Source: Blastochloris tepida
GTDB lineage: Bacteria; Pseudomonadota; Alphaproteobacteria; Rhizobiales; Xanthobacteraceae
DNA length: 64,000 nucleotides
Direction: 5' to 3'
Assembly (NCBI RefSeq): GCF_003966715.1
Contig: NZ_AP018907.1
Span: forward strand, 2,034,001-2,098,000
Positions 8,524 to 16,383 of the stretch are shown piece by piece. The notes beneath the pieces are model-generated. The model was not told the origin of the DNA and made no database searches. It was given only the letters and a program-made list of their open reading frames with translations. The stretch's first letter is position 1. Each line of letters opens with the position of its first letter. The translations under genes and the position numbers were made by a program.

Positions 8524-9879
8524 TCAGCCCGCGCGCGGCAGCCGCACCACCGCGGTCATGGCGCCGGGCGCGGTCGGGCCGAGCGTCAGCGCCCCGTCCC
8601 AGGCTTCGGCGAGGTCGGCGGCGATGGCGAGGCCAAGCCCGGTGCCGGGCCCGGTCTGGTCGAGACGGCCGCCGCGCCGGAGCGCGATCGGCACCTGGGC
8701 CTCCGGAATGCCCGGCCCGTCATCGATGACCGAGATCACCACCCAATCCGCCTCGGCGACCGCCCGCACCTCGATGCGCTCGGCGGCATGGCGGGCGGCA
8801 TTCTCCAGCAGATTGCCGAGGATCTCGGTCAGGTCGTCGGGCTGGATGCGGACGGCGAGGTCGGCAGGCACGTCGTTCGACCATTCGAGCGCCTCGCCGC
8901 GCGACGTGCGGCGCACCACGGCGATGACCTGCGCCGCCACCGCCGCCACCATGGCACGGGCAGTGGTGGTGCCGCCGGTGCGGCGTGCCCGCGCCAGTTC
9001 CCGCTCGACGTGCCGGCGCATCGCCTCGCCGATGGCGGCGAGGTCGGCGGCGATGACGCTCTCGCCCTTGGCCTGCAGCCGGTCGATGTCGCCGGCCAGC
9101 ACCTGCAGCGGCGTCTTGAGCCCGTGGGCGAGGTCGGAGGCGCGTGCCCGCGCCGCCGTGACCTGACGTTCACGCTGCTCCAGCAGGGCGTCGACCTCGG
9201 CGGCCAGCGGGCGAACCTCGTCGGGGAAGGCCGTGCCGAGCCGCTCGGCGGTGCCGGCGCGGATCGCCGCCAGCCGGGCCTGCACCGCCTTGAGCGGCGC
9301 CAGACCCACCGCCACCTGCACCGCCGAGGCCGCCACCAGCAGCAGCGCCACCAGACCGAGAAACGGCAGCAGGTCGCCGGCAAAATCGCGGGTCGCCGCG
9401 GTGAGATCGGCCACGTCCTGCGCCACAGCCACCCGCACCGCGCCGCCGCCCAGCCGCGGCGACAGGATCACCCGCCGCTCCACCGCCAACAGCGTGCCGC
9501 CCCCCGGCCCCGGGATGCGGTGGTGGTGCAGCGTGCCTTCCGACAGTTCGTCGGCTGGCAGCGCCAGTTGCGAATCCCACAGCGAGCGCGACCGATCGAT
9601 CAGGCCGCCCGGCTCGGCCGTCACCTGCCAGTAGAGCCCGGCCAGCGGCTTGTCGAAGCGTGGGTCGTCGGGCGGATCGGTCTCGGCCAGCCGGCCGCTG
9701 GTGTCGCTGTCGAGCCCCGCCAACAGCCGGTCGAGAATGACCGTCAGGTCGGCTGCCATGCGCCGCTCGACGTGGCGCTCGAACAGCATGGTCAGCCCCA
9801 GCGCGGCGAGCCCGAGCGCCAGGAGAATCGACACCGCTCCGGCCGCGAACAGCCGCAGCCGCAGCGAGCCGCCGATCAC
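8524..9879 (-). CDS. Sensor histidine kinase of a PepSY-linked two-component system
   Basis: Inner-membrane kinase of 451 aa. Transmembrane helices lie at about residues 10-33 and 170-192 with a periplasmic sensor domain between. The phospho-acceptor is H252 in DLAHGLKTPLQVL. The ATP-binding domain has the N box LLENAARHA, the G1 box DDGPGIPE and the G2 box GTGLGLAI. It overlaps the response regulator by 4 bp and is the last gene of the operon. The arrangement resembles PhoPQ/QseBC-type systems with envelope or metal inputs, but the signal is not known. Confidence 0.93.
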   Translation of the reverse strand: MIGGSLRLRLFAAGAVSILLALGLAALGLTMLFERHVERRMAADLTVILDRLLAGLDSDTSGRLAETDPPDDPRFDKPLAGLYWQVTAEPGGLIDRSRSLWDSQLALPADELSEGTLHHHRIPGPGGGTLLAVERRVILSPRLGGGAVRVAVAQDVADLTAATRDFAGDLLPFLGLVALLLVAASAVQVAVGLAPLKAVQARLAAIRAGTAERLGTAFPDEVRPLAAEVDALLEQRERQVTAARARASDLAHGLKTPLQVLAGDIDRLQAKGESVIAADLAAIGEAMRRHVERELARARRTGGTTTARAMVAAVAAQVIAVVRRTSRGEALEWSNDVPADLAVRIQPDDLTEILGNLLENAARHAAERIEVRAVAEADWVVISVIDDGPGIPEAQVPIALRRGGRLDQTGPGTGLGLAIAADLAEAWDGALTLGPTAPGAMTAVVRLPRAG

Positions 9880-10544
9880 GGCCGCGGCTCCGCCACCAGA
9901 TAGCCGAAGCCACGGCGGGTCTCGATCAGCTCGGCGCCCAGCTTGCGGCGCAGCCGGGTGACCAGCGCTTCCAGGGCGTTGGCGTCGCGGGCATCGTCGT
10001 CGCCATAGAGATGGCCGATCAGCTCATGGGCCGGCACCACCCGCCCCTTGTGGAGCGCCAGATAGGCCACCAGCCGGTATTCGAGTGGAGAGAGCGTCAC
10101 CGGCAGGCCGCGCACCGTCACCCGCATCTCGCGCGGATCGACGGCGAGCGGGCCGGCCTCGATCACCGCCGTGCCGATTCCCGCCGAGCGGCGGACGAGC
10201 GCACGGGCACGGGCGACCAGCTCCTCCATGCGGAAGGGCTTCGGCAGATAGTCGTCGGCGCCGGCATCGATGCCTTCCACCCGCTCGGCCCAGGTGCCGC
10301 GCGCCGACAGCACCAGCACCGGCATCTGGCGCCCGTTGCGCCGCCAGCGCTTGAGCACCGCCAGACCGTCGAGCCCCGGCAGGCCGAGATCGAGCACCAC
10401 CAGCGCGTAGTCCTCGGTGTCGCCCTTGAACCACGCCTCCTCGCCATCGGCGACGACGTCCACCACCGCCCCGGTCGCCGTCAGCGCCGCGGCGATGTCA
10501 TCGGCGATGCGCGGCTCGTCCTCCACCACCAGCACGCGCATCAC
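9876..10544 (-). CDS. OmpR/PhoB-family response regulator
   Basis: DNA-binding partner of the histidine kinase, 222 aa. The receiver domain starts VLVVEDEPRIADDIAAAL, with the phospho-acceptor D52 in LVVLDLGLPGLDG and the conserved Lys in YLPKPF. The C-terminal winged helix has the expected LTPLEYR-like segment (LSPLEYRLVAYLALHKGRVV) and ends in VTRLRRKLGAELIETRRGFGYL. Its start overlaps the PepSY gene by 4 bp and its end overlaps the kinase by 4 bp, so the three are translationally coupled. Confidence 0.95.
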   Translation of the reverse strand: MMRVLVVEDEPRIADDIAAALTATGAVVDVVADGEEAWFKGDTEDYALVVLDLGLPGLDGLAVLKRWRRNGRQMPVLVLSARGTWAERVEGIDAGADDYLPKPFRMEELVARARALVRRSAGIGTAVIEAGPLAVDPREMRVTVRGLPVTLSPLEYRLVAYLALHKGRVVPAHELIGHLYGDDDARDANALEALVTRLRRKLGAELIETRRGFGYLVAEPRP

Positions 10545-10918
10545 ATCTTTTCCTTGAGGACCTCGCCGGTCATGGCATCGACCTCGGCCTCGACCAGCCG
10601 GCCATCCGGCCGCAGCACCTTGACCTCATAGACGATCCGGGCGTCACAGTGTTCCAGCTCGACCTCGATGACCTGCCCGCCCAGCGCCGACTCGACAGCC
10701 GGCAGGATTTCGGCCAGCGGCCGCGCCCGCCCCTCCTCCAGCGCCCGCCGGGCGCAGTCGTGGTCGTCACGGCGGCGGTGGCGATTCCGCCGCTGCTCGC
10801 CAGGGCCGTACGGCCCGCCAAACCCATGCGGCGGACCAAATTGCGCAGCGGCGCCGGGAATGCCGAGAAGTCCGCACACGCCGGCCAGAAGAATCACGCG
10901 CCTGACATTATCAACCAT
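10541..10918 (-). CDS. Secreted PepSY-domain protein
   Basis: Small exported protein of 125 aa at the head of the two-component operon. A signal peptide covers about residues 1-24 (hydrophobic VILLAGVCGLLGIPGAAA). A short basic and His-rich linker precedes one PepSY domain with the typical ending YEVKVLRPDGRLVEAEVDAMTGEVL. Such domains are thought to bind peptides or modulate periplasmic signalling, and here the protein probably tunes the adjacent sensor. I prefer the ATG at 10918, 5 bp after AAAAGG, over a GTG two codons upstream. Confidence 0.88.
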   Translation of the reverse strand: MVDNVRRVILLAGVCGLLGIPGAAAQFGPPHGFGGPYGPGEQRRNRHRRRDDHDCARRALEEGRARPLAEILPAVESALGGQVIEVELEHCDARIVYEVKVLRPDGRLVEAEVDAMTGEVLKEKM

Positions 10919-11160
10919 GGTCACCTTTTAGATTCGCACGGCTGACGGCGCCCTGACGCCGCCGCCGTCCCCAGCCGGACCGGGATTGCCGGGATTGCGA
11001 GGCGAATCCCCCTTCCGGCAAGGCGCTGTGAAAGCCGGCAAAGAACCGTCGCTCGGCGCAACGCCGCCTGCCGCCTCGGGAAAGAGGAGCGGCCGCCGGC
11101 AACCTCCGCGAAACAGCGCGATCGAGCGGCGCCAAGCGGCATTTGCCGGCAATGGCGGCC

Positions 11161-11256
11161 ATTGCATTCGGCGCCAGAAACGGTAGTGTCACCCCGCTTG
11201 GGGGGTGCGACAACCTCTTCCATTCTCATCCGTGACGGACCGCAGCCCCGACCGGT
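11161..11256 (+). promoter_or_regulatory. Conserved upstream segment with dyad, copy A
   Basis: About 96 bp that recur as 12365-12460 in front of the second small gene. A possible promoter is TTGCAT at 11162 and TAGTGT at 11184 (16-bp spacer), conserved as TTGCAT/TAGAGT in copy B. Immediately after lies a dyad, CACCCC at 11190-11195 and GGGGTG at 11202-11207. In copy B one C-G pair becomes T-A, so symmetry is kept while sequence changes. It could be a protein-binding palindrome or an RNA hairpin, depending on the unknown transcription start. Confidence 0.6.
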
Positions 11257-11345
11257 TTGCATGGATGAACTGAAGCGTCTGGTCATGCCAGCCGTCTCAG
11301 TATGGGGGAGGTGGGCACCCTCAGCTCCTTAGGAGAGGATCAAAG

Positions 11346-11516
11346 ATGAAACTTTCGTTCGTTATTGGGGCGCTCTCGGCCATCCTCGCGTCGACGGCTG
11401 CGTCTGCCGCCATGGTCAACGGCGTTGTTCAGCCGAGCATCACCGACTGGAACCTGTGGGTTCCGCTCGGAATCCTTGGCATCCCGACCATCTGGATCGC
11501 GCTGCTCTATCGTTGA
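11346..11516 (+). CDS. Small signal-peptide/single-helix protein, candidate LH1 gamma polypeptide (copy A)
   Basis: A 56-codon gene after an AGGAG ribosome site. Residues 1-21 form a signal peptide ending in the AxA motif ASA, leaving about 35 aa. The mature part is polar ([15 protein letters not shown]) then one hydrophobic segment ([18 protein letters not shown]) ending in Tyr-Arg. A single short membrane helix of this size matches my recollection of the 36-residue gamma chain of the Blastochloris LH1 antenna (B1015-gamma); I have not compared sequences. A paralogue lies 1.2 kb downstream, and their last 66 nt are identical. Gene reality is well supported; the antenna role is an inference. 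Confidence 0.8.
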
Positions 11517-11606
11517 GCACGTGCCCAGCGGTTCAGGATGTGAGCAGAACATATCGGGCTGGGCTCCTCGTGGGCCCAGAACGGTTCTGTAAAGCCTGAC
11601 GCTCTT

Positions 11607-11689
11607 GCAGGATTTCCAATTGCGCTAAGGCGCTTTTGGGAATCCTGCTTCATAAAGCTGCCACAGCCCTGCGCTTGTGGCAGCTTTTT
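11607..11689 (+). terminator. Double terminator after copy A
   Basis: Two stem-loops follow the small gene. The first pairs 11607-11617 with 11638-11648 (GCAGGATTTCC against GGGAATCCTGC, one G-T wobble), with an inner GCGC/GCGC stem. The second pairs 11654-11665 (AAAGCTGCCACA) perfectly with 11676-11687 and ends in a T run to 11689, a classical Rho-independent terminator. The GCAGGATTTCC stem recurs in the terminator of copy B. Confidence 0.85.
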
Positions 11690-12360
11690 GATTCTTGCCG
11701 TCCGGTTTTCCGCCGTTCGCGCGCCCGCCATCCGACGTCTCATCCCCCGAACTGCTGCCGTTCGAGTCCCTGCTTTCGATTCTGTCCGCGCGCCGTTTTC
11801 TCCCCTTTTCTTGTTTTTCCCCTTTTCTTGCCCTCTCCTTGTCTCGGCTCACCTCGTTTCTCGAATCCGTTGATTCTATTACGGGCTGCGGTTCAGCCTG
11901 CGCACGGTGTGACGCCAGCAGCTTCTGCGGCCGAGGATCTCCTCTCGGAAGCTTCTTCGCCCGGAAGCCCGACCGGGGGCGTCGCGGCCAACCGGTGGCC
12001 TTGCGCCCCCTCGCTTTGCCCACCGCCCTCTCCGGACAGCGATCGGCCGGCTGGTCGAGCCCGTACGTAGTACGTCTCATGGGTGCATCCCATCCCGGTT
12101 GCGGCGACCGCGCGTGCCGCGGCCGACCCGTGGGCGGTGGTCCCAGGTCGCGCTCCCCTGCGTGGCGACCGAGTCGCCGCCGCGCCCTCGGTGCAACCCT
12201 TGCCGCATGCGGCTTCGCGGCCGCTGGCTACCGGACGCGCTCCGCCGGATTGTTTCCGGCGAATACCTCCGCGGCGTCAAAAATGTTCGCCCGCCACGAG
12301 CTCGAACCGCATGCGGCGGGCCGGTGATCGGCAGTTTCTCGTAACCTCAATCGCCGATCC
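11690..12360. other. Non-coding spacer between the twin small genes
   Basis: About 670 bp with no frame I would call a gene: candidate frames on both strands are rich in Arg, Ser and Pro and overlap one another. A pyrimidine-rich tract with TTTTC and CCCCTTTTCTTG runs occupies about 11805-11850. No third copy of the small gene is visible. Confidence 0.55.
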
Positions 12361-12364
12361 GACC

Positions 12365-12460
12365 ATTGCATTCGTCGCCAGAAGCGCTAGAGTCACCTCG
12401 CTCGGAGGTGCGACAACCTTTTCCGTTCTCATTCGCAACGACACCGCTGCCCCGATCGGT
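12365..12460 (+). promoter_or_regulatory. Conserved upstream segment with dyad, copy B
   Basis: Counterpart of 11161-11256. The possible hexamers are TTGCAT at 12366 and TAGAGT at 12388. The dyad is CACCTC at 12394-12399 and GAGGTG at 12405-12410 with loop GCTCG. Relative to copy A the fifth stem pair changed from C-G to T-A, a compensatory pair of substitutions. The following GCGACAACC is identical in both copies. Confidence 0.6.
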
Positions 12461-12558
12461 GTGAGGTGAATGGACTGGCGGCGGAAGACAACACCGGCCG
12501 CGAGGCATGGCGGAAAAGGAAGTAAGCATTCCTGGGCCCCTTCATGAGAGGACCAAAG

Positions 12559-12732
12559 ATGAAACTATCAGCTGTTATTGGGGCGCTTTCGGTCGTCCTC
12601 ACGTCGACGCTCGCTTCTGCTTACTTCGCTGCCGATGGCTCTGTCGTGCCGAGCATCACCGACGCCAACCTGTGGGTTCCGCTCGGAATCCTTGGCATCC
12701 CGACCATCTGGATCGCGCTGCTCTATCGTTGA
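12559..12732 (+). CDS. Small signal-peptide/single-helix protein, candidate LH1 gamma polypeptide (copy B)
   Basis: A 57-codon paralogue of 11346-11516. I start it at the ATG after GAGAGGACCAAAG, not at the ATG five codons earlier, because copy A also begins MKLS. The signal peptide ends ASA at residue 21, leaving exactly 36 aa starting [18 protein letters not shown]. The hydrophobic segment and C-terminus are identical to copy A and encoded by identical DNA (12667-12732), while the N-terminal mature part differs and one Trp is replaced by Ala (ITDA against ITDW). It has its own conserved leader and terminator, so it is probably expressed independently. Confidence 0.8.
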
Positions 12733-12821
12733 TCACAGGTCGGCGTAGCAGGGCCTGAGCAGAGTGACGCAGGTTGGACTGAAGGTCGGACCAGCGCTGT
12801 CCTGCAAAACCTGAGACGATC

Positions 12822-12876
12822 GCAGGATTTCCGAATCCGCTCATATGCGGACTTCGGAAATCCTGCTTTATTTTTG
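12822..12876 (+). terminator. Strong Rho-independent terminator after copy B
   Basis: Perfect 14-bp arms GCAGGATTTCCGAA (12822-12835) and its complement (12853-12866), extended inward by TCCGC/GCGGA (12836-12840 and 12847-12851), followed by TTTATTTTT. It is a better-preserved version of the first stem after copy A. Confidence 0.9.
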
Positions 12877-12908
12877 GCGATCGCAATCCGGTTGATCGTC
12901 AGATTCCT

Positions 12909-13013
12909 AGAGCGTGATCCGATCTGACTGCATCAGATCGGACGCTTTAAGTTTCTCGTTTGTCGCATTTTCTTTCGCACAACCGGTATCCACTTGTGCG
13001 GAAAATGCTTTAG
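12909..13013. repeat. Dispersed intergenic palindromic repeat, long copy
   Basis: Begins AGAGCGTGATCCGATC and contains the stem TCCGATCTGA/TCAGATCGGA (12918-12927 and 12933-12942), then TTTGTCGCATTTTC, ACCGGTATCCACTTGTGCGG and AAAATGCTTTAG. The second half recurs in reverse orientation at 29080-29130 and 34191-34230. This kind of element is common between genes in Hyphomicrobiales. Confidence 0.75.
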
Positions 13014-13256
13014 TGGCCGTCCGTTACGCCGCGCCCCCTGCGCGGCTTTATTTTTGCCGGCGACATGACCTTGCCGAGCAAGTGAGACAAACGGCCCGAA
13101 CGCTGAGGCGTGGGACCGTCGACTCTCGCGGTTTTTCTCATCTGATACCAGCCTGCTTGGAGCATGACTCCGGGGTCTATCGTCGCCAGCGACCGGGCCG
13201 ACAGCCTCTGATCCGCGCAGGCTGAGATGACATGCTTGCGCACTCTCACCGTGGTC

Positions 13257-13364
13257 ATCGCCGGGCTTGGCCCGGCGATCTCGATTGGACCGCGGCGGTG
13301 TCGGACAAGAGGTCGGCAAGCGGGATGACCAGGGTGTCGGGATCGCCGGGACAAGCCCGGCGAT
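13257..13364. repeat. Pair of REP-like hairpins
   Basis: Two hairpins of the widespread alphaproteobacterial type: ATCGCCGGGC/GCCCGGCGAT at 13257-13279 (perfect, loop TTG) and a similar one at 13342-13364 (loop ACAA-like). They separate two blocks of sequence that are adjacent to each other upstream of the secretion genes (29140-29260), so they look inserted. Confidence 0.7.
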
Positions 13365-13426
13365 GGCGGGGACTGTTCCGGCCATACCGCTTGGCCCCGC
13401 AGGTTCCCGTCCACGCAGGCCGGTAT

Positions 13427-13488: not shown

Positions 13489-14001
13489 TCCGACCTCGCC
13501 GGCAAATCATGCGGACGACCCCAAGCACTGACGCGCGCGACCGTTCGCACTCCGATCGCCAAAATTTCCAATGTCGAGCCAACCCTGGCTGACCGACGCT
13601 TTCGTCGAGACCGCTTCCGGCATCCCGGAGGGATCATCGGGAGGCCGTGTGACACGATCTCGCTCCGGGTGGCCTGCTGCCGCGGGCCTGCCACAAGGCG
13701 CTGCCGTCGCACGCTTGCCAGTCGGTGCCGGCATGCCGTGTCATATGGTTTCCGGATGATTACCCGATGGAATGCGGAAGCAAACTCCGCAGAAATCGCC
13801 CTCGAACGTCGGAATTCCCAGCAACTGAGCGACAAAACGCCCCCTACGCCGTTCGATTTCGTGTCGCCACTCACCCCCGGGCTGTCGTCGACCGCCAATG
13901 AAGTGTCACAGGTAGATGGCATTTTAGGGATCAATACGCAGTTTGTTTAAAGCGTCTTCGGAATCATGCCGCCTGCGAATTGGGGTCCAGGAGGGCGCAT
14001 C
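13489..14001. other. Region upstream of the RTX protease
   Basis: About 510 bp with no supported gene. The last 250 bp are less GC-rich than the surroundings and probably contain the protease promoter, but I could not pick hexamers with confidence. Short frames on the minus strand are Arg/Ser-rich and look spurious. Confidence 0.45.
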
Positions 14002-16383
14002 ATGGCGAAGGCGGTTTGGACGAACGCCCAGATCACTGCTCAGCTCGACAGCGGTTATCACCTGACGGGCGCCAGCCTGACCTACGGCTTCCCCTCCAGC
14101 GCAAGCTGGTTTCCCTACGCCGAGAAGTCCGGGTTCTCGGCGCTGAACAGCACCCAGCAGACCGCCGCAACCCTCGCCATCAAGCTGTGGGATGACCTGA
14201 TCACGACCGATTTCGCCTACACGTCCAACGGCGCCGCGGCGACGATCAAGTACTCGAACACCACCACCAATATCGGCTACGCCCACGCCTATTATCCGGG
14301 CAGCTATACCGGCGCCAGCTCCGTCTGGTTCAATTCCAGCTACGGCTCGAATTCCGGCACCAACAATCTGGTGTCGCCCACCGTCGGCCAGTGGGGCTTC
14401 CAGACCTACGTCCATGAAACCGGCCACGCGCTGGGTCTCGACCACCCCGGCGACTATAATGGCGGCTCGCCGACCTATGCGAACGATGCACTCTTCATGC
14501 AGGATTCGCAGATGTACACCATCATGTCGTACTTCACGGCCAACAATACCGGTGCCGACTGGGTGGCGAGCGACGGCAAGACCTACTACGCCCAGACCCC
14601 GATGCTGTACGATATCCTGGCCATCCAGACGATGTACGGCGCCGAGACCACCACGCGTGTCGGTAACACCACCTACGGCTTCAATGCCACCGCCGATGCC
14701 TGGGTGTTCGACTTCACCCAGAACAGGCACCCGGTGCTGTGCATCTATGATTCCGCCGGTACCGACACGATCGACCTGTCGGGCTGGAGCTATTCCTGCA
14801 CCCTCGACCTGACGCCGGGCGCGTTCTCCAACTGCGATATGATGACCTGCAACCTCTCGATCGCCTATGGCGCCTGGATCGAGAACGGCATCGGCGGCAG
14901 CGGGGCGGACCGGCTCACCGGCAACAGCCTCGGCAACACGCTGTCCGGCCTCGGCGGCAACGACATCATCGACGGCGGCGCCGGCAACGACATCCTCCTG
15001 GGCGGCGACGGCAACGACCAGCTCACGGGCGGAACCGGCGACGACACGCTGACCGGCGGCGCCGGCAACGACACGCTGACCGGCAATGACGGCAGCGACA
15101 CCGCGCTCTATTCTGGCCTGTTCGCGGCCTACACGATCTCCATCTCCGGCAGCAGCTATCTGGTCTCCGGTGAAGGCGTGGACACGCTGACCGGCATCGA
15201 GTTCGCGCGCTTCGCCGACGGCATCTACGATTTCCTGCTCGGGCTGTTCTCAGACCCCACCACGACCACGACGACGACCACGACGACGACCACCACCACC
15301 GACGAGGAGGAAACCGGGGTCATCGTCCATGGCTCGAAGCGCAGCGACACCATCAGCACGACCGTCACCGTCACCGGCCAGTCCAAGGCCGGCAACGGCG
15401 CCGACACGCTCTACGGCTATGCCGGCAACGACTCGCTGGATGGCGGCCAGGGCGCCGACATCATGTATGGCGGTGCCGGCAACGACACCTACACGGTGGA
15501 TGATGCGGGCGACCAGGCGATCGAACTGATCGGCCAGGGCACCGATCTCGTGCGCACCTCGCTGTCCGCCTTCGCGCTCGGCGACTATCTCGAAGGGCTG
15601 ACCTTCATCGGCAGCGGGGATTTCGCCGGCACCGGCAACGAGCTGGCCAACATCCTGACCGGCGGGGCCGGCGACGACACGCTGTCCGGGCTCGCCGGCA
15701 ACGACACGCTCACCGGCAATGACGGCAACGACACGCTCGACGGCGGCCTCGGCAACGACACCATGGTGGGCGGCGCGGGCAACGACACCTATGTGGTCGA
15801 CAGCACGCGCGACAGGATCACCGAGCGCAAGGATGGCGGCACCGATCTGGTGACCACCACGCTCAGCAAATATACGCTCAGCACCTATCTCGAGAATCTC
15901 ACCTATACCGGATCGGACTCCTTCACCGGCACCGGCAATGCGTCAGCCAATGTCATCACCGGCGGCACGGGCAAGGACACGCTGTCCGGCGGCGCCGGAA
16001 ACGACGTGCTGAGCGGCCTCGCAGGCGATGATATCCTGGAAGGCGGCGCGGGCATCGACACGCTCTCCGGCGGCGAGGGCGCCGACACCTTCGTGTTCCG
16101 CACCATCAAGGACATGGGCTGCGGCGCGAACGCCGACACCATCAGCGACTTCTCGGTGGATGAGAACGATATCATCGACCTGCGCCTGATCGATGCCATG
16201 ACCACGGTGCGCGGCAACAACACCTTCGTGTTCATCGGCGATGACGACTTCTCGAACACGGCGGGCCAGCTTCGGTTCACCGAGGGCCTGCTCGCCGGGG
16301 ACATCAATGGCGACGGCACTGCCGATTTCGAGATCTGCCTCACCGGCGTCACCACGCTGACCGCGGCGAACGTCATCCTTTGA
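14002..16383 (+). CDS. Serralysin-type RTX metalloprotease (peptidase M10B)
   Basis: Secreted zinc protease of 793 aa without a signal peptide, as expected for type I secretion. The zinc site HETGHALGLDHP is at residues 138-149 and the Met-turn TIMSY near 175. A first block of GGxGxD calcium repeats (about 305-365) is followed by an acidic-flanked run of 14 threonines (DNA 15259-15300), then two more modules, each ending in a GNDTYxVD-type segment and new GGAGNDTL repeats. The C-terminal part (TFVFRTIKD, DFEICLTGV) matches the serralysin C-terminal domain that carries the secretion signal. I start at 14002 after AGGAGGG, not at 13966. It contains several Cys residues, unusual for this class. 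Confidence 0.93.
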   Translation: MAKAVWTNAQITAQLDSGYHLTGASLTYGFPSSASWFPYAEKSGFSALNSTQQTAATLAIKLWDDLITTDFAYTSNGAAATIKYSNTTTNIGYAHAYYPGSYTGASSVWFNSSYGSNSGTNNLVSPTVGQWGFQTYVHETGHALGLDHPGDYNGGSPTYANDALFMQDSQMYTIMSYFTANNTGADWVASDGKTYYAQTPMLYDILAIQTMYGAETTTRVGNTTYGFNATADAWVFDFTQNRHPVLCIYDSAGTDTIDLSGWSYSCTLDLTPGAFSNCDMMTCNLSIAYGAWIENGIGGSGADRLTGNSLGNTLSGLGGNDIIDGGAGNDILLGGDGNDQLTGGTGDDTLTGGAGNDTLTGNDGSDTALYSGLFAAYTISISGSSYLVSGEGVDTLTGIEFARFADGIYDFLLGLFSDPTTTTTTTTTTTTTTDEEETGVIVHGSKRSDTISTTVTVTGQSKAGNGADTLYGYAGNDSLDGGQGADIMYGGAGNDTYTVDDAGDQAIELIGQGTDLVRTSLSAFALGDYLEGLTFIGSGDFAGTGNELANILTGGAGDDTLSGLAGNDTLTGNDGNDTLDGGLGNDTMVGGAGNDTYVVDSTRDRITERKDGGTDLVTTTLSKYTLSTYLENLTYTGSDSFTGTGNASANVITGGTGKDTLSGGAGNDVLSGLAGDDILEGGAGIDTLSGGEGADTFVFRTIKDMGCGANADTISDFSVDENDIIDLRLIDAMTTVRGNNTFVFIGDDDFSNTAGQLRFTEGLLAGDINGDGTADFEICLTGVTTLTAANVIL

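Follow-up and report, generated by a model that had tools for sequence, protein, structure and literature searches.

Two short genes in the stretch of Blastochloris tepida DNA that we analysed (64,000 nucleotides, here called the window) very likely encode two forms of the LH1 γ subunit, which very likely share one mixed antenna ring and whose 3' ends have probably been shaped by gene conversion. The window lies within a single contig of 3,949,390 bases, and the two reading frames start 1213 nt apart on its plus strand. A preliminary description of this DNA had noticed two short genes with MKLS... leaders ending in ASA, remainders of 35 or 36 residues and a common hydrophobic end, and all of these are present. 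The remainder comprises 35 residues in γ1 and 36 in γ2, both with the same 18-residue helix end as read from the sequence; the γ1 cleavage site was placed by reference to the 36-residue B. viridis peptide (PMC9788563). The coding features are as follows.

11346..11516, plus strand: γ1 gene, 56 residues plus stop; LH1 γ subunit, minor form, ITDW; 100% identical to PDB 9j2f chain G
12559..12732, plus strand: γ2 gene, 57 residues plus stop; LH1 γ subunit, major form, ITDA; 100% identical to PDB 9j2f chain F
11346..11408, plus strand: predicted signal peptide of γ1, 21 codons, MKLS... to ASA, from the sequence; 0/63 nt different from B. sulfoviridis γ1
12559..12621, plus strand: predicted signal peptide of γ2, 21 codons, MKLS... 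to ASA, from the sequence; 0/63 nt different from B. sulfoviridis γ2

We compared both proteins to solved structures. The γ1 protein is identical over its full length to 9j2f chain G, 'Light-harvesting protein gamma1', present as a single chain in the deposit, and γ2 likewise to chain F, 'Light-harvesting protein B-1015 gamma chain', present as 15 chains; the open reading frames are thus very likely the genes for two LH1 γ forms, as the preliminary description had proposed. PufA (17 chains) and PufL of the same genome are identical to chains A and L, and the deposited complex therefore very likely stems from B. tepida. PufB matches 9j2f_B over 68 residues (17 chains), and the chain table lists 17 α, 17 β and 15 + 1 γ chains. 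It is thus very likely, judging by these sequence identities, that 9j2f represents the B. tepida complex with a mixed 15:1 γ ring. The idea that antenna composition could vary through the differing N-terminal parts finds its counterpart in the deposit, which holds 15 ITDA chains and one ITDW chain. An alignment with the B. viridis γ peptide, suggested earlier as a check, was run on 6et5, whose 24-residue γ chain (16 chains) aligns gap-free with γ1 over 24 and with γ2 over 23 residues. A lack of similarity to known γ chains, or a genome without puf genes, had been named as evidence against the γ reading; we found the similarity, and the genome carries puf genes. PF00556 has two matches in the genome, both above cut-off, and PufM and PufC were recognised by eye; together with the PufA, PufB and PufL matches to 9j2f, the PF00556 matches indicate an LH1-RC of the BChl b type. 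The γ genes are multiple and lie away from puf, with pufBA at 0.294 Mb and the γ genes at 2.045, 2.047 and 3.703 Mb. That the two frames encode unrelated short membrane peptides merely resembling γ has a negligible probability, being contradicted by the full-length identity to two named 9j2f γ chains, and we found nothing in its favour.

The two proteins are already known and their structure is solved, so that our comparison adds to them modestly, namely the Trp/Ala exchange described below. The family itself, the presence of several copies away from the photosynthesis cluster and the function in B. viridis have likewise been published (PMC9788563). Both γ proteins, PufA and PufL show no protein-level difference from the 9j2f chain table; that table contains neither the arrangement of the genes nor the codon swap relative to B. 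sulfoviridis. A literature search returned no paper describing 9j2f.

In B. viridis, four γ genes have been reported, three of them clustered, with γ4 undetected in the complex (PMC9788563). The subunit was defined there as a 36-residue chain by peptide analysis, the clustered genes lie far from the photosynthesis cluster, and 16 copies are found per ring of 17 αβ units (PMC9788563, PMC10214105). In white light, a strain without all four γ genes is reported to absorb at 972 rather than 1018 nm, a blue-shift of 46 nm, and in halogen light its LH1 was not assembled; re-supply of wild-type γ restored 1018 nm, whereas γ4 supplied from a plasmid moved the absorption less far to the red, reaching 1003 nm (PMC9788563). 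The precursors of B. viridis γ1-γ3 are 89-91% identical to B. tepida γ2. The helix starts with Trp in all three clustered B. viridis genes, which are near-identical, whereas the two B. tepida genes are unlike, the major form carrying Ala and the minor form Trp. A more distant case is the γ-like polypeptide of Rhodopila globiformis (7xxf), reported with 22 residues, 11 copies and BChl a; it keeps its formyl-Met and hence has no cleaved leader. In a search of solved chains with our γ profile at E up to 10, the 7xxf γ-like chain, whose 22 residues make the power of this comparison low, was absent from the four matches.

We next consider how the two genes came to be alike. The features that bear on this question are the following.

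11451..11516, plus strand: 66-nt 3' end of γ1, identical to that of γ2 by direct comparison; likely within a gene-conversion tract
12667..12732, plus strand: 66-nt 3' end of γ2, identical to that of γ1 by direct comparison
11448..11450, plus strand: alignment codon 36 of γ1, TGG (Trp), where the helix starts, from codon comparison; swapped with γ2 relative to B. sulfoviridis
12664..12666, plus strand: Ala codon GCC of γ2 at the same alignment position (codon 36), from codon comparison

At the DNA level the two copies are alike over ~500 nt each (11156-11653 and 12360-12871; 72.5%, E 2e-70), including the upstream element and the downstream hairpin. This similarity reaches beyond the coding part and hence indicates a true duplication rather than a chance resemblance. 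The preliminary description had reported a 66-nt identical end behind differing upstream codons; the identity is exactly 66 nt long, and the signal-peptide parts of γ1 and γ2 differ at 14/63 nt. For γ1 and γ2 of both B. tepida and B. sulfoviridis we made a comparison by codon, from which one gapped codon was omitted. Of 36 variable sites, 24 are two-state sites with a 2:2 distribution, and the other 12 were set aside. Orthologues are grouped by 20 of these 24 sites, all in codons 3-26; the remaining four, in codons 36 and 38, never group orthologues. Three of them form the crossed codon 36, which is TGG in B. tepida γ1 and B. sulfoviridis γ2 and GCC in B. tepida γ2 and B. sulfoviridis γ1. The fourth groups paralogues at codon 38 (Leu), which is CTG in both B. 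tepida copies and CTC in both B. sulfoviridis copies. The chance that the two non-orthologous codons among 16 are the last two is 1 in 120. Between the two species, orthologous signal peptides are 0/63 nt apart for both genes, and the helices 0-1/57 nt.

Since both genes also occur in B. sulfoviridis, within a shared neighbourhood, and since the orthologous signal peptides are identical, the duplication predates the split of the two species, and conversion accounts better than recent duplication for the shared 3' end. The preliminary description had left open whether recent duplication or gene conversion was responsible, and of these two the latter is the better supported. The 66 identical nucleotides would fit a very recent duplication in the B. 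tepida genome without any conversion, yet this origin is very improbable, and we rejected it on account of the B. sulfoviridis pair, in which orthologous leaders are identical while paralogous leaders are 14/63 nt apart. It is thus likely that conversion of the 3' part after duplication, the simplest account of the swap, took place, a reading that relies on two informative codons after codon 26. The small number of such codons (36 and 38) would also be compatible with a Trp/Ala crossing produced by parallel point changes or by the sorting of ancestral alleles, the similarity of the helix codons being due to strong constraint alone; the helix is indeed conserved across species, γ1 and γ2 each being 4-5/57 nt from each clustered B. 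viridis gene. However, TGG and GCC are unlike at all three bases, so that parallel change needs several identical steps, and the Leu codon 38 sorts by species, with CTG in B. tepida and CTC in B. sulfoviridis. In addition, protein P0013, which was found in a protein database and comes without genomic context, joins a γ2-like leader to a γ1-like mature part and is thus a chimeric γ. We consider parallel change or allele sorting unlikely, though not far-fetched, and retain conversion as the preferred account. A literature search on gene conversion in Blastochloris had as its sole match a paper that is taxonomic by title.

The helix-start residue varies also among database proteins. From 20 profile matches we drew 12 proteins of the γ1/γ2 type (P0001 and P0002 were typed from their genes), the other eight being γ4-like (P0017 was typed in this way too); four of the 12 carry Ala and eight carry Trp. 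P0016 is another γ1 with Trp and, like P0013, accords with conversion. Trp also occupies this position in each of the three clustered γ genes of B. viridis. Nothing suggests a large colour effect of the Ala majority; altered carotenoids have been reported to leave the LH1 Qy band of B. tepida unaffected (PMC9133646). A separate observation concerns window positions 11409-11432, the first eight codons of the γ1 mature part, which differ at 8/24 nt from B. sulfoviridis γ1 between an identical leader and an identical helix. This fast-changing N-terminal tail is predicted to be periplasmic.

If the B. tepida subunits behave as their B. viridis relatives do, the leader would be exported and cut at ASA, leaving a helix of 35 or 36 residues with its N terminus out and its C terminus in. 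This helix would pack between β chains of the antenna ring and stiffen it, the absent 17th γ leaving a quinone gap (PMC10214105, PMC10212510), and would help to shift LH1 absorption past 1000 nm. γ2 would fill 15 of the 16 ring positions and γ1 one, each gene being transcribed as a separate unit that does not belong to the photosynthesis cluster. Gene conversion may keep the 3' ends alike and may have traded the helix-start codon, Trp or Ala, between the loci, so that the majority subunit of B. tepida carries Ala at a position that is Trp in B. sulfoviridis γ2 and in all three clustered γ genes of B. viridis. One could go further and regard γ1/γ2 conversion as a natural shuffler of the outer ring, making a ring of 15 Ala to 1 Trp where the sister species would build the reverse, with γ1 as a dedicated single-copy subunit in a fixed seat, for example beside the quinone gap; we offer this extension tentatively and regard it as rather doubtful.

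It is also conceivable that only γ2 is a functional antenna gene. In that case γ1 would be a relict with trace expression, and its lone chain in the deposit would reflect a choice made in modelling one site. The 15:1 chain ratio in 9j2f would agree with such a relict, as would the fast change of the γ1 mature N-terminal part between species (8/24 nt, against 0/63 in the signal peptide). But the γ1 signal peptide (0/63 nt) and helix (0/57 nt) are the same in both species, γ1 keeps the conserved upstream element, the Shine-Dalgarno-like box and the hairpin described below, and the depositors gave that one chain its own named sequence. We therefore judge a non-functional γ1 to be distinctly unlikely and favour two γ forms in one ring.

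As γ takes B. viridis light harvesting beyond 1000 nm, it matters for understanding and tuning this limit which γ genes each species has and with which it fills the ring. Of potential use here are the Trp/Ala difference that occurs naturally between the majority subunits of close species and an unlike γ pair whose products share one ring 15:1 in 9j2f: with the published B. viridis strain that lacks the γ genes, one could test directly what the helix-start residue and the odd single subunit do.

We analysed the flanks of the two genes, aligning them, like the codons, for seven of ten γ genes, since three γ4-like genes were too divergent. The following elements were found.

11162..11189, plus strand: conserved upstream element of γ1, predicted promoter, TTGCAT-N16-TANNNT
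12366..12393, plus strand: conserved upstream element of γ2, predicted promoter, from alignment and pattern search
11332..11339, plus strand: Shine-Dalgarno-like GGAGAGGA of γ1, from the sequence; GAGGA kept in 7/7 aligned γ genes
12546..12552, plus strand: Shine-Dalgarno-like GAGAGGA of γ2, from the sequence; GAGGA kept in 7/7 aligned γ genes
11607..11648, plus strand: hairpin after γ1, predicted terminator; fold -31.1 kcal/mol, z -7.2; unlisted by the terminator scan
11654..11687, plus strand: second hairpin after γ1 with T-rich tail, predicted terminator, from the terminator scan; 11645-11700 folds at -25.1 kcal/mol, z -5.2
12822..12866, plus strand: hairpin after γ2, followed by a T-rich tail, predicted terminator; fold -34.5 kcal/mol, z -7.3; unlisted by the terminator scan

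The upstream pattern TTGCATTC...CG.TA...T precedes 7/7 clustered γ genes, starting 174-193 nt before the start codon, and occurs in the three Blastochloris genomes at those seven places only (reversed control, 0). It was built from the same seven genes, and hence only its absence elsewhere counts as a test. A scan of 11100-13000 for consensus σ70 promoters returned no site. A similar stem sequence lies 3' of six of the seven aligned γ genes, γ1 and γ2 included, the exception being the B. viridis gene V_a. The terminator scan listed the second γ1 hairpin and two others, and these three, against a shuffle mean of 2.3, represent no enrichment. Because γ1 and γ2 are each preceded by a conserved element and followed by a hairpin of their own, they are likely to form two separate transcription units. 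The three γ genes of B. viridis are reported to be transcribed together, per peptide ratios (PMC9788563). A palindrome near 12396, CACCTC...GAGGTG, was considered as an operator and rejected, since on visual inspection neither B. sulfoviridis γ2 nor the B. viridis genes conserve it. The region 12355-12450, searched against its own genome, matched only the two γ copies, apart from six short hits at chance level.

Our family comprises ten γ genes from three genomes, three from B. tepida, three from B. sulfoviridis (G002) and four from a genome that we take to be B. viridis (G001), since its gene V_a encodes a protein equal to P0004, to which NCBI gives the name B. viridis. B. tepida is reported to be nearest to B. 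sulfoviridis, at 91.5% average nucleotide identity (ANI), and then to B. viridis, at 83% (PMC7193936). Over the γ locus, the three longest blocks aligned with B. sulfoviridis DSM 729 are 86-93% identical, and the longest block shared with G001 is 84.9% identical. A profile of the ten genes, run against a database of 5.8 billion sequences, matched 20 proteins among 573 candidates; organism names accompany three of the 20, and all three are Blastochloris. The same 10-row profile gave two matches at E 0.001 in 397 genomes drawn from the order, both Blastochloris. A peptide-pattern scan of one genome per species returned one locus, in B. sulfoviridis, and missed B. viridis, so that its sensitivity is limited. 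Weaker matches (E 0.003-0.06) in 10 other genomes of 41 searched fall in frames of 305-480 residues and were taken as chance; in nine of these genomes they cover residues 4-50 at 34-43% identity and in one residues 18-56, and the three Blastochloris genomes also show weak long-frame matches of this kind. Neither Pfam nor NCBIfam yielded a model for γ: 0/10 members have a Pfam match at E up to 1, and 1/10 has a weak, unrelated NCBIfam match (E 0.043).

The third γ gene of B. tepida lies elsewhere in its genome.

G000:C1:3703014-3703184 (L008:5015-5185), minus strand: third, divergent γ gene; outside the window

This gene is 77% identical to B. viridis γ4, which shares just 58% with the γ2 precursor of the window. 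It lies downstream of HemD-like and HemY-like genes on the same strand and near a PhyR-like regulator and an ECF sigma gene; within ~3 kb of the γ4-like copies of the relatives, a search for HemY-like, PhyR-like and ECF sigma genes gave no match. The B. tepida neighbours hint that the γ4-like gene may be under stress- or pigment-linked control.

Several features adjoin the γ pair within the window. Upstream of γ1, at 8524-10924 on the minus strand, are genes for a PepSY protein, a response regulator and a histidine-kinase-like protein, and similar open reading frames occur in B. sulfoviridis; they are possible regulators. Beyond γ2, positions 13256-13365 hold an inverted repeat, ATCGCCGGGC-TTG/CAA-GCCCGGCGAT, with nine exact matches in the genome, and the surrounding segment (13210-13384) has a match in B. 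sulfoviridis in the opposite orientation. Further on, 13966-16383 encodes a large protein in which Pfam finds RTX repeats and a C-terminal domain of the serralysin type; it also has a long Thr run, and a similar reading frame adjoins the γ genes in B. sulfoviridis.
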